From positions 1 to 56,165 of the forward strand of contig JAOMDA010000009.1 in NCBI GenBank assembly GCA_028345295.1: 56,165 nucleotides of DNA. Direction: 5' to 3'. The notes under the pieces are model-generated. The model searched no databases, was not told where the DNA came from, and saw only the letters and a program-made list of their open reading frames with translations. The stretch's first letter is position 1. Each line of letters begins with the position of its first letter. Position numbers and translations under genes: made by a program. The DNA is from Candidatus Nitrosopelagicus sp. (lineage in GTDB: Archaea; Thermoproteota; Nitrososphaeria; Nitrososphaerales; Nitrosopumilaceae). This document shows, in pieces, positions 11,463-37,353 of the stretch.

Positions 11463-12197
11463 ATGGGAGCATTATTATCAACTGCAAAAAAACTATCAAA
11501 GCAGAAATTAGAGCTTGGTAAAATTCGACGTTCAAGTGAAAAGGAGTTTAAGAAGGCAAAAGCAGCATCCAGGAAATATTCATCATCATTAACATCATTA
11601 GAAAAAAGGGTCAATTCCTCAAGGGAACATGCAGAAGATTTAGGGCAAATTCTTAATCAAAAAATTGCTCAGATAGAGAGTGTTCAAAGATTAAAGAATG
11701 CAGCTATTGAAAGATTAGGATTAGAGTCGCAAAATAAGGAACAATTAGAAGGTGAATCAGAATTTGCTAATACTGAAGAAGAAAAAGATTCTATTGTATC
11801 AAGATTAAGTATGATTAATACTGTTATTGATGATATAAAAAATGAAATAAAACAACGAACGTCAATGGAAAAAAAGCTACAGATAACAATTGACGAATAT
11901 AATAAATCAAAATCAAGAGTTTCTAGTAAAATCAAGAAAAATCTAGGATCAAAACCAACATTACTTAAACTGGTCAAGATTAGTAAGAGTAAGGTCGAAA
12001 CAACAGCAAAAAAATTTAGTTCTAGTAAGGCTCGTGAGGACTCTACTAAAAATAGACTAATCAAGATTTCATCTGAATTATCTGAAATTATGAAAAAGAA
12101 GGTAAAAGCTAAACCAAAAACAAGAAAAGCAAAAGCTAAACCAAAAACAAGAAAAGCAAAAGCTAAACCAAAAACAAGAAAAAAAACTAGAAAATAA
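11463..12197 (+). CDS. Coiled-coil protein with basic Lys/Pro/Arg repeat tail
   Basis: Two-part protein of 244 residues. Residues 1-210 are heptad-like and charged, with no Cys or Trp, and are predicted to form long coiled coils (SLEKRVNSSREHAEDLGQIL; EEEKDSIVSRLSMIN). Residues 211-244 are a tandem basic tail with units AKPKTRKAK repeated three times. The tail resembles the lysine/proline-rich tail of histone H1 or bacterial HU-like proteins, so nucleic-acid binding is a reasonable inference, not shown. A second protein with a Lys/Arg/Thr repeat segment is at 35137. Confidence 0.75.
   Translation: MGALLSTAKKLSKQKLELGKIRRSSEKEFKKAKAASRKYSSSLTSLEKRVNSSREHAEDLGQILNQKIAQIESVQRLKNAAIERLGLESQNKEQLEGESEFANTEEEKDSIVSRLSMINTVIDDIKNEIKQRTSMEKKLQITIDEYNKSKSRVSSKIKKNLGSKPTLLKLVKISKSKVETTAKKFSSSKAREDSTKNRLIKISSELSEIMKKKVKAKPKTRKAKAKPKTRKAKAKPKTRKKTRK
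12108..12188 (+). repeat. 27-nt tandem repeat encoding the basic tail
   Basis: Units start at 12108, 12135 and 12162. The first two complete copies are identical in DNA and the third matches for about 19 nt, then diverges into further Lys/Arg codons. Identity at synonymous positions means the repeat expanded recently or is kept uniform by slippage. Confidence 0.9.
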
Positions 12198-34349: not shown

Positions 34350-34430
34350 GATGAATGTATAAGGTTAACGGGATTGTAAACTATTTTTCATATGCTAAGA
34401 GTTTAATGTTGCTAGAAAAATATGTTTACA

Positions 34431-34664
34431 ATGACAAATGATGAAAATTGTCTTGTTTGTAAGGGTGACGGAACAATAGAATTACTAGATTCTCAATGTC
34501 CTTTCTGCAATGGCACAGGCGAGTTCACTAAATCTGCAGAGAGTTATTTACAATCTCATATATGCCAATGTATTTTTCTTGATAGAAAAATGTGTCCAAT
34601 CTGTGAGAAAAAATGTCATCATGATACTCCGAATAGACCTAAAGTTTTGATAAATCCAATGTGA
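34431..34664 (+). CDS. Small DnaJ-type zinc-finger protein, 77 aa
   Basis: Two CxxCxGxG-like elements, CLVCKGDGT and CPFCNGTGE, copy the zinc centre of DnaJ. They are followed by CQC, CPIC and KKCHH, enough ligands for two zinc sites. There is no J domain. The family is unnamed; it may be a thiol or protein-binding zinc module. ATG 34431 is preferred over ATG 34422 because GTTTAATG lies about 27 nt before it. It ends directly against the next gene with no spacer. Confidence 0.75.
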   Translation: MTNDENCLVCKGDGTIELLDSQCPFCNGTGEFTKSAESYLQSHICQCIFLDRKMCPICEKKCHHDTPNRPKVLINPM

Positions 34665-35042
34665 TTATGGCATTGGAGGAAGTTCACTTTTCTTTCCATG
34701 ACCACCTGAACCAAACTTACAGTAGAAACATAGATCTGATTGCATATGTGTTAAATGTTCAATTTGTATTGCACCTAGTTTGAGTGCAATTTTTGTTAAA
34801 ATTTTATATTTTAATGGCATTGCAGGAATTACTTCATCCATGTAAACTTTGTAATGTTCAGGGCAAAATTTCAGAGTCACTTTAGCTGAATCAGAACCAG
34901 ATTCATTAACTGTTTTTGCAAATTTTATTTGTTCTCTAATGTATTCATGTTTTGGGCAAGGGCAATTTTTTCCACCTGGATGCTTATAGGCTGGGGTATT
35001 TTTCCAATCAAAGCCAGGGTATTCCTTTTCAAAATCGTCCAT
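34665..35042 (-). CDS. Conserved Cys/His-containing hypothetical protein, 125 aa
   Basis: Unrecognised. The N-terminus NCPCPKHEYIREQ, middle LKFCPEHYKVYMDEV and C-terminus DLCFYCKFGSGGHGKK place five Cys and several His in metal-binding arrangements. The central stretch LKYKILTKIALKLGAIQIEHL is helical. Soluble. It ends exactly where the convergent zinc-finger gene ends. No function is claimed. Confidence 0.68.
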   Translation of the reverse strand: MDDFEKEYPGFDWKNTPAYKHPGGKNCPCPKHEYIREQIKFAKTVNESGSDSAKVTLKFCPEHYKVYMDEVIPAMPLKYKILTKIALKLGAIQIEHLTHMQSDLCFYCKFGSGGHGKKSELPPMP

Positions 35043-35136: not shown

Positions 35137-36069
35137 ATGGCAACTGCAAAGAAGCGTACAACTAGAAAAGCAACTAGAAAAGCAACTAGAAAGCCAACTA
35201 GAAAAGCAACTAGAAAGCCAACTAGAAAAGTAACTAGAAAGCCATCTAGAAAATCAAGTTCTTCAGCATCAAAAGCAAAAGAATTAGAGAAAAAAATTGC
35301 AGATTTAGAAGCAAGGTTAGCTAAACTTTCATCAGGTTCTACTGATAACGCAGCAAAAGCAGCAGCTGAAAAAGCAGCAGCTGAAAAAGCAGCAGCAGCA
35401 CAAGCAGCAGCACAAGCAGCAGCACAAGCAGCAGCAACACAAGCAGCAGCAAAGGCAGCAGCTGAAAAAGCAGCAGCTGAAAAAGCAGCAGCTGAAAAAG
35501 CAGCAGCTGAACCTGCAAAGAAAGAAACAGCTCCACCACCTGCAGCAGCACCACCACTTCACGAAAGATTCCGTGAAATTCCAACAGGAAACTGGAATGA
35601 TCAGAAACCAAAAGTTCCAGGATTTACAGCTCCAGGTAATAGGTATTTTGGAAGTAGAGGATTAGCAGCACAAGTTCAAGTTACTCCAGGAAACTGGAAT
35701 GATCAGAAACCAAAAGTTCCAGGATTTACAGCTGCTTCTAACAAGTATTTTGCTACAAAACAGAGACTTGCATATCATCCCGAAGCAACAAAATTTGGTA
35801 CATGGATTGTTGATGCACCTGCAAGTACTCAAACAGCACCACCTCCACCTCCACCACCAGCTCCTGAACCACAAGTTCAGCAAACATCATCAAGTGGAGA
35901 AAAATCTAAGGAGCAATCTCTAGAAGAATATGAGAAAGAATATCTTGTACGATTAGAAACACAAAAGGCAGAGGCAGCAGCCGCAGCAGCTGAAGCAGCA
36001 AAAGCAGAAGTAGCATCAGCAGCACAAGCTGGCAAAGGTTCAATGCCAAAAGGCTGGAAACCATCCTAG
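35137..36069 (+). CDS. Modular low-complexity protein: basic repeat, coiled coil, Ala-rich rod, duplicated motif
   Basis: A 310-residue mosaic. Residues 9-40 are eight TRKA/TRKP-type tetrapeptides. Residues about 45-66 form a short coiled coil (KELEKKIADLEARLAKLSS). Residues about 70-125 are Ala/Glu/Lys/Gln-rich (AAAEK, AAAQ units). Two copies of GNWNDQKPKVPGFTA lie at about 151 and 185. A proline run and an Ala-rich C-terminus follow, ending KGSMPKGWKPS. No signal peptide is present. The basic N-terminus suggests nucleic-acid binding and the rest looks like a linker or scaffold; both are inferences. CTAAATAAAG is centred 27 nt before the ATG. Confidence 0.8.
   Translation: MATAKKRTTRKATRKATRKPTRKATRKPTRKVTRKPSRKSSSSASKAKELEKKIADLEARLAKLSSGSTDNAAKAAAEKAAAEKAAAAQAAAQAAAQAAATQAAAKAAAEKAAAEKAAAEKAAAEPAKKETAPPPAAAPPLHERFREIPTGNWNDQKPKVPGFTAPGNRYFGSRGLAAQVQVTPGNWNDQKPKVPGFTAASNKYFATKQRLAYHPEATKFGTWIVDAPASTQTAPPPPPPPAPEPQVQQTSSSGEKSKEQSLEEYEKEYLVRLETQKAEAAAAAAEAAKAEVASAAQAGKGSMPKGWKPS
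35161..35256 (+). repeat. 12-nt tandem repeat encoding TRKA/TRKP units
   Basis: Eight consecutive 12-nt units based on ACTAGAAAAGCA, with variants giving Pro, Val or Ser. Drift between copies is larger than in the 27-nt repeat at 12108. Confidence 0.88.
35587..35631 (+). repeat. 45-nt perfect direct repeat, copy 1
   Basis: Encodes GNWNDQKPKVPGFTA. It is base-for-base identical to 35689-35733, spaced 102 nt start to start. Confidence 0.93.
35689..35733 (+). repeat. 45-nt perfect direct repeat, copy 2
   Basis: Identical to 35587-35631. Both copies are followed by an (N)(K/R)YF motif in protein (GNRYF, SNKYF), so the duplicated module is about 20-25 residues at the protein level. Confidence 0.93.
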
Positions 36070-36086
36070 CCACATTACTTTTCTTT

Positions 36087-36557
36087 TTATATATTTTTGA
36101 AAATTTCTAGAACTTCCTTAGAGTGTCCTGCAGGTTTAACTTTTGGGAATACTTTGAAAATTTTACCTTTTTCATTTACTAGGAACGTACTTCTATTAAT
36201 TCCCATAAATTCCCTACCCATGAATTTTTTCTTTCCCCATACACCAAATTTCTTACACACTTCTGTTTCAATATCAGATAATAAGATGTAAGGAATGTTC
36301 ATTTTATCACAGAATTTTCTATGAGATGTAATATCATCTTTACTTATTCCAACTACTTCAATTCCAGCCTTTTTGAATTTTGCATAATCCTTTGAAAATT
36401 CGTCAGCTTCTGTAGTACATCCAGGAGTAAAATCTCTGGGATAAAAGTAAATAACATATTTCTTGCCTTTCAATTCAGATGATTTTACTAGTTTTCCATT
36501 AGCATCTTTTAGTTGAAATTTTGGGACTGACTCTCCTTCACTTATCATATTATACAT
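36087..36557 (-). CDS. bcp: Thiol peroxidase of the Bcp/PrxQ peroxiredoxin family
   Basis: Reduces H2O2 and organic peroxides. The 156 residues carry the peroxidatic motif FYPRDFTPGCTTEADEF, with the peroxidatic cysteine in PGCTTE. The PrxQ-type resolving cysteine five residues later is absent (C-T-T-E-A-D), so it behaves as a 1-Cys or partner-dependent enzyme. VVGISKDDITSHRKFCDK, ILLSDIETEVCKKFGVWG and INRSTFLVNEKGKI are typical. The start is ATG 36557, or ATG 36548 three codons in. Confidence 0.93.
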   Translation of the reverse strand: MYNMISEGESVPKFQLKDANGKLVKSSELKGKKYVIYFYPRDFTPGCTTEADEFSKDYAKFKKAGIEVVGISKDDITSHRKFCDKMNIPYILLSDIETEVCKKFGVWGKKKFMGREFMGINRSTFLVNEKGKIFKVFPKVKPAGHSKEVLEIFKNI

Positions 36558-36639: not shown

Positions 36640-37353
36640 ATGGTAAATCCAAGAGCATGGCTTGCTGAAGCAATTGCAACATTTGGTTTAGTATTCTTCG
36701 GTCCATTATCTGTAATACTTTCAGTAGTTGTTTTTGGAGACGGATTATCCATTGAGTCAATAATAATGATTTCATTAGGTCATGGTGCAATCATTGCATT
36801 AATGGTATATGCATTTGGACATGTTTCAGGTGCTCATATCAATCCAGCTGTAACAATTCCGATGATTATTACAAAAAAAATTGGAGTAGCAGATGGTGCT
36901 GGATATATAGTATCACAGGTAATAGGCGGAATAATTGCAACATTATCACTAATGGCATTATTCCCTGAAATTGGAAAAGCCGTTCTTTGGGGAGGTCATG
37001 GAGGACCAAGTGAATTATTGAATTTCAGTATGGAATCTGCATTTATAGTTGAAATTATTCTAACATTCTTCTTAGTTGTAGTAATTTTTATGACTGCAGT
37101 TCACAAAAATGCACCAAAAAGTGTCTACGGCGCAGCAATAGGAGGAATGGTTTTCTTACTTCATTTAGTTGGTGTTCCATTAACTGGTGCATCAATGAAT
37201 CCAGCCAGATCTCTTGCACCAGCAGTTGCAACAGGTGATGCTGGTTTGTTGGAAGTCCAGTGGTTGTATTGGGCAGCACCAATCATTGGTGGCATAATTG
37301 CTGGTGTAATAATGAATTATGTATATGTAAACAAGGCAGAAAAAGAAGCATAA
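36640..37353 (+). CDS. Aquaporin / MIP-family channel
   Basis: A 237-residue channel with six membrane helices and both half-helix NPA motifs: SGAHINPAVTIPM in the first half and GASMNPARSLAPA in the second. The Arg after the second NPA (selectivity filter) is present. Water or small neutral solute transport is expected; permeability to ammonia is an attractive but unproven idea in an ammonia oxidiser. TTTTATATGG is centred about 27 nt before the ATG. Confidence 0.93.
   Translation: MVNPRAWLAEAIATFGLVFFGPLSVILSVVVFGDGLSIESIIMISLGHGAIIALMVYAFGHVSGAHINPAVTIPMIITKKIGVADGAGYIVSQVIGGIIATLSLMALFPEIGKAVLWGGHGGPSELLNFSMESAFIVEIILTFFLVVVIFMTAVHKNAPKSVYGAAIGGMVFLLHLVGVPLTGASMNPARSLAPAVATGDAGLLEVQWLYWAAPIIGGIIAGVIMNYVYVNKAEKEA

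Follow-up and report, generated by a model that had tools for sequence, protein, structure and literature searches.

A conserved gene family of ammonia-oxidising archaea with paired modules and a C-terminal motif that recurs on unrelated proteins

The window (i.e., the whole stretch of 56,165 nucleotides of Candidatus Nitrosopelagicus sp. analysed here) carries at 35137–36069, on the plus strand like all the features of this gene listed below, an open reading frame for a soluble protein of 310 amino acids devoid of transmembrane segment, which we call the module protein. The anatomy described in an earlier note (a TRK tail, a coiled coil, an alanine-rich rod and two modules) is confirmed by the sequence. 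The basic TRKA/TRKP tail (35137–35262; residues 1–42, net charge +19) is specific to the lineage and encoded by a 12/24-nt tandem repeat (35159–35257, TRF score 163). It is followed by a short coiled coil, KELEKKIADLEARLAKL (35263–35340), conserved in the family and showing a 4-3-4-3 spacing of its leucines and isoleucines, then by a rod of the AAAEK type (35341–35508) encoded by a 15-nt repeat (35355–35511, TRF score 181), in place of which relatives have a Pro/Ala/Lys linker that carries GTLPKG repeats. Next come two GNWNDQKPKVPGFTA modules, the first from residue 151 and the second from residue 185: module 1, GNWNDQKPKVPGFTAPGNRYF (35587–35649), and module 2, GNWNDQKPKVPGFTAASNKYFATKQRLAYHP (35689–35781), the latter being the best-conserved stretch across the family. 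Finally, a Pro/Ser-rich linker (35815–35898) leads to a C-terminal helix (35899–36030) with an EYEKEYLVRLE element, resembling an element of coiled-coil proteins that bear LPKG, and to a putative docking motif, KGSMPKGWKPS (36034–36066).

The earlier note had reported a 45-nt perfect repeat beneath the modules; identical copies are indeed present (35585–35631 and 35687–35733), but the exact direct repeat measures 47 nt, two more than claimed, with a spacing of 102 nt and a wider similarity of 75 nt at 87%. In an AlphaFold model, residues 43–121 (including the coiled coil) and 255–298 are helical, while the modules are left without structure (pLDDT ~42), as expected for linear motifs, although the underlying alignment, of 15 close sequences, is shallow. 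The modules are thus probably an unstructured, motif-like docking element, in line with what had been proposed, and they are conserved in orthologues. The C-terminal KGSMPKGWKPS, the helix 255–298 and the restriction of the identical module pair to one species group (see below) had been overlooked.

The module gene sits in a fixed neighbourhood, found in 14 of the 14 genomes with wide context, a few of which have insertions: genes for an MqnC-like radical SAM protein, UbiD, a small Cys-rich protein (13/14) and a 125-aa Cys protein, one or two module genes, PrxQ and an aquaporin, with genes of the shikimate pathway farther out. In the window, the small Cys-rich protein has 80 amino acids and is weakly DnaJ-zinc-like (34422–34664, plus strand), while the divergently oriented 125-aa Cys/His-rich protein (34665–35042, minus strand), conserved beside the module gene(s), is nearly invariant in the genus; it matches no Pfam family and modelling gave no confident fold. 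On the other side lie the PrxQ/Bcp-type peroxiredoxin (36087–36557, minus strand) and the aquaporin-like protein (36640–37353, plus strand), the latter named from its sequence alone on account of its NPA motifs.

With the module region as a single-sequence query, homologues were recovered from 20 of the 22 genera and 123 of the 200 genomes of the family to which the window belongs (f1, which we read as Nitrosopumilaceae-type), including 21 of the 31 genomes of its genus. The nearest named relatives are contigs of Candidatus Nitrosopelagicus (90% identity), in keeping with an origin from a marine ammonia oxidiser of that genus. A profile built from ten members of the gene family had its matches confined to f1, with none in other families in 201 genomes searched at the level of the order and 300 at that of the class, and viral contigs encoded no relative. 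In keeping with the earlier note, no known family accounts for the protein: Pfam, NCBIfam, PHROG and PDB gave nothing above cut-off, the PDB profile search returning nothing beyond fortuitous matches to a fimbrial subunit. The module protein therefore belongs to a conserved, undescribed gene family of ammonia-oxidising archaea and is no peculiarity of a single genome.

Across the family, the core order is coiled coil (consensus K-K-D-L-E-A-K-I-A-E-L-E-A-K-L-x-K-L), Pro-rich (Pro/Ala/Lys) linker, two modules, Pro-rich linker and PKG[FW] end. The modules share the aromatic consensus WNxQKxKVxGY...N[KR]YF and are placed ~34 residues apart, and in the long copies (see below) a helix with [DE]YExxYLxR[LMI] follows the Pro linker, before the C-terminal [KR]G[ST][LM]PKG[FW]. 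The conserved parts are the modules and the C-terminal motif, while linker length and repeat number vary freely. Since the modules are conserved in orthologues, the observation by which the earlier note proposed to refute itself, i.e., a module absent from all of them, is not borne out. Its view of the TRK mosaic as the defining arrangement has to be given up, because the tail is an addition confined to Ca. Nitrosopelagicus, where it is mostly found in one of two paralogues; it is missing from the short paralogues and from the other genera examined. Reduced forms occur in genera g6 and g9, in which STGYTGNKYFATRxRLSYHP is all that remains of the module and GTLPAG takes the place of the motif; in g9 (L108:8784-9899, L243), the whole module-plus-linker unit is duplicated inside the module protein.

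Most complete genomes have two tandem copies of the gene, a short one (~210–270 aa) and a long one (~300 aa), whereas the genome of the window has a single one. Within genomes, the cores of the paralogues are identical over 255 of 255 nt in five of eight cases (252 and 248 in two others, 207 in the last), compared with ~124–218 of 255 between genera, and the ends of the tandem copies differ between paralogues. Gene conversion, possibly together with selection for the same binding surface, would be the simplest reading of these identical cores and of the identical module pair in the window gene. At the level of the modules themselves, the window gene shares its two identical 45-nt copies with its closest relative (L043), while in most other Nitrosopelagicus the modules (GNWNTQKVAITGF and SNWNDQKTKITGY) differ at 12–17 of 45 sites; the sequences thus indicate that the identical pair is special to the species group of the window. 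Chance does not account for the repeat, since L043 has the same pair and the two modules of relatives lie 34 residues from each other. In most Nitrosopelagicus (L101:7013-7243 and L101:7365-7523; L047, L050, L054), two module genes flank a flavodoxin gene and genes for small proteins of ~52–82 aa, consisting almost entirely of GPHxHDEKP, TLPKGF and ANTGH motifs; the species of the window has neither these small proteins nor the second module copy.

The C-terminal motif, [KRH]G[TS][LM]PKG[FW], ends nearly every module protein and can be repeated up to eight times. When searched as G[ST][LM]PKG[FW] followed by a stop, it yielded 20 matches in 12 of 22 genomes, all at the place of the module gene, against 0 for a reversed-pattern control. 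Without the stop, ~74 matches (8 in the control) were obtained in 18 genomes of the family, whereas four genomes from other families gave 3 (2 in the control). Elsewhere in the order, apparent PKG matches outside the family are at control level and fall in short ORFs unrelated to the carriers described here. Besides the module protein, four kinds of carriers were found. One is a membrane protein with a signal peptide, a single transmembrane segment, a basic stretch after it and a cytosolic tail in which a conserved block, QTGIDPxxLxGxxTSxxSGGYxTNRGEAxL, precedes a terminal RGSMPKGW. Another is a coiled-coil protein whose N-terminal part holds a twofold repeat (GDxGRLxHIxxxLxxxxxLxxSDxxYLxxKL) and which has a Lys-rich tail. 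The third is a DUF3892-like protein with long coiled coils (an 844-aa frame in G001), which in one genome of 2,045,086 bp (G031) has 15 repeats of SPRG[TS][LM]PKG[FH]. The last are the small proteins of most Nitrosopelagicus, whose GPHxHDEKP and DAKANTGH-COOH are common to module proteins and the DUF3892-like carrier.

In the window's own genome, 92% complete, only two carriers are found by pattern, the module protein and the membrane protein, which end in KGSMPKGWKPS* and KGSMPKGWKPE*, respectively. For unrelated proteins, such a ten-residue C-terminal match has a rough chance expectation of 6e-5. The two C-termini are identical at 31 of 42 nt, and the C-terminal cassettes could owe part of their likeness to DNA exchanged among genes, and not to selection for a shared partner. 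The earlier note had also suggested a small set of repeat-tailed proteins, including one encoded at 11463. Related proteins do exist, but they are tied together by the PKG[FW] motif and sited elsewhere. The protein at 11463–12197 (244 aa, coiled coil, no family match, with a Lys-rich tail encoded by 2.9 copies of a 27-nt perfect repeat) has neither a Pfam match nor a PKG motif and shares only the Lys-rich repeat tail with the module protein, so that this pairing is rejected.

The membrane protein is also present in families f2, f3 and f8 of the order, which we take to be ammonia oxidisers too, but ends there 2–6 residues past the transmembrane helix; in these families without the module gene, the tail is lacking. 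Genus g9, whose modules are reduced, has a short, different tail. The long tail hence coincides with the full module family. Nevertheless, the coupling of module protein and membrane protein is not universal, since in several genera (g2, g4, g12 and g17) a Cys-rich block replaces the PKGW end of the tail. This block, CGCAASAEMGSECDCEMQGSCLCDASCGCAA, was seen in L213, L214, L216, L217, L220, L221 and L222.

From these data, we infer that the module protein may be a disordered cytosolic scaffold or adaptor, oligomerised through its coiled coil and taking part in a docking network of short linear motifs at the inner face of the membrane, a reading that we regard as evenly poised between right and wrong. 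The short N-terminal coiled coil would join several chains, whose flexible Pro/Ala-rich linkers would display the two aromatic modules along with one or more [KR]G[ST][LM]PKG[FW] peptides. These peptides might be read by a common receptor or by the modules themselves, through mutual binding. As the same peptide stands on the tail of the membrane protein and on the coiled-coil proteins, either would gather membrane protein, coiled-coil proteins and scaffold into one assembly under the membrane.

Known systems offer parallels for such a design. CsoS2 is a disordered scaffold of the carboxysome whose repeated short motifs, one of them V/I-T-G-like, gather other proteins. The module protein resembles it as a predicted disordered chain with repeated short motifs; however, no sequence relation was found in Pfam or NCBIfam, the neighbourhood has no shell-protein or Rubisco genes, and a coiled coil and PKG[FW] ends set the module family apart. 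Similarly, the MIT-interacting (MIM) tail motifs of archaeal ESCRT-III/Cdv proteins are short, Pro-containing docking peptides read by one receptor domain, to which the Pro-containing tail peptide of the module family may be likened, although [KR]G[ST][LM]PKG[FW] matches no MIM consensus known to us. Altogether, the module protein would function in the manner of known multivalent scaffolds with short motifs, yet it falls into none of the families tested.

Other functions were considered. The basic TRK/KPA repeat tail is reminiscent of the Lys-rich tails of Burkholderia H1-like and Pseudomonas AlgP-type proteins, and the module protein might be a chromatin protein that condenses DNA, its Lys/Arg/Thr tail acting as that of histone H1 and the remainder serving as spacer and oligomerisation part. 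The net charge of the tail would suit this role, as would the Lys-rich tails that also end the coiled-coil carriers with the twofold repeat, and a weak histone H1-like match exists (NF038053, E 0.0013). Yet the latter reaches 19 bits for a curated cut-off of 80 and spans low-complexity sequence only, while the tail, present in Ca. Nitrosopelagicus alone among the genera examined, is no part of the family core; binding to DNA would moreover leave the conserved modules and the end peptide shared with the membrane-protein tail unexplained, so that we consider this role unlikely. Still less probable, in our opinion, is a role in storage or metabolic granules (polyphosphate, polyhydroxyalkanoate or an enzyme condensate), which the protein would coat or organise, the multivalent motifs serving as stickers. 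The sticker-and-spacer architecture (PKG motifs number up to 8 in a module protein and 15 in one other carrier) and the basic tail of one lineage are consistent with it and, since granule proteins have Ala-rich helices, those of the module protein might be compared with them by analogy. On the other hand, no granule-protein family of Pfam or NCBIfam is matched, the conserved neighbours include no granule-synthesis gene, and the motif on the tail of a membrane protein points to the membrane.

That the repeats have no specific function, the gene being dispensable and shaped by gene conversion and the expansion of low-complexity sequence, is already disfavoured and strikes us as very improbable: linkers are indeed free in length and repeat number, and some genomes, many of them incomplete, have no detectable copy, but the modules and the C-terminal motif are the best-conserved parts, the locus is fixed and the tandem pairs are kept near-identical. 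Finally, we give hardly any credence to the modules being a degenerate nucleic-acid-binding domain akin to the hybrid-binding one at the N-terminus of RNase H1. The ungapped likeness to PF01693 (W..[DE].K..V.G[FY]....K.F.T, over ~25 residues of the module) is seen in four of ten family members, with a best E of 0.009, and one of ten module-2 peptides gives an E of 0.055. Nonetheless, every score is under the gathering cut-off of 21 bits (15.3 for the core of the window protein and 14.2 for that of a relative), and the full-length protein gives no match. The likeness covers but half of the domain (about positions 15–39 of 44), whose fold is beta-beta-alpha-beta-alpha, the modules are predicted to be disordered in the shallow-alignment AlphaFold model, and the profile misses solved hybrid-binding domains in spite of their presence in the library.

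Returning to the docking network, a broader and rather doubtful possibility is that Nitrosopumilaceae-type archaea, ammonia oxidisers abundant in the ocean, have a membrane-linked internal skeleton or condensate of their own, built through the shared docking peptide and arising in this family as the membrane protein acquired a cytosolic tail. The membrane protein, on that tail, the filament-like coiled-coil proteins and the tandem pair of module scaffolds would all carry the peptide. To our knowledge, docking networks based on motifs among non-homologous proteins have rarely been described in archaea. The literature searched does not discuss the motif peptides for archaea (the matches shown for LPKGF were coronavirus papers) and has no paper tying Nitrosopumilus to such a scaffold, while the main texts of the proteomic and genomic studies consulted hold neither locus-level nor direct expression evidence for the module gene. 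Sequence alone nevertheless points to such a network in marine ammonia oxidisers of a dominant group, through a consensus peptide, its carriers and a tailless outgroup and, if true, this would provide a concrete handle on how these small cells organise their membrane and interior, as well as a marker of the archaeal family that current domain libraries lack. Even if the network were wrong, a gene family has been defined that is conserved, lacks annotation and keeps its locus.

Two further proteins were noted around the coiled-coil carriers: a stand-alone DUF3892 protein of 103 aa (L162:6408-6719), directly downstream of a DUF3892-like coiled-coil carrier, and a coiled-coil protein with RGTLPKDF and HGTMPKGF (L209:1-1167), which has a DUF5679 zinc ribbon (E 4.7e-16) at its C-terminal end.
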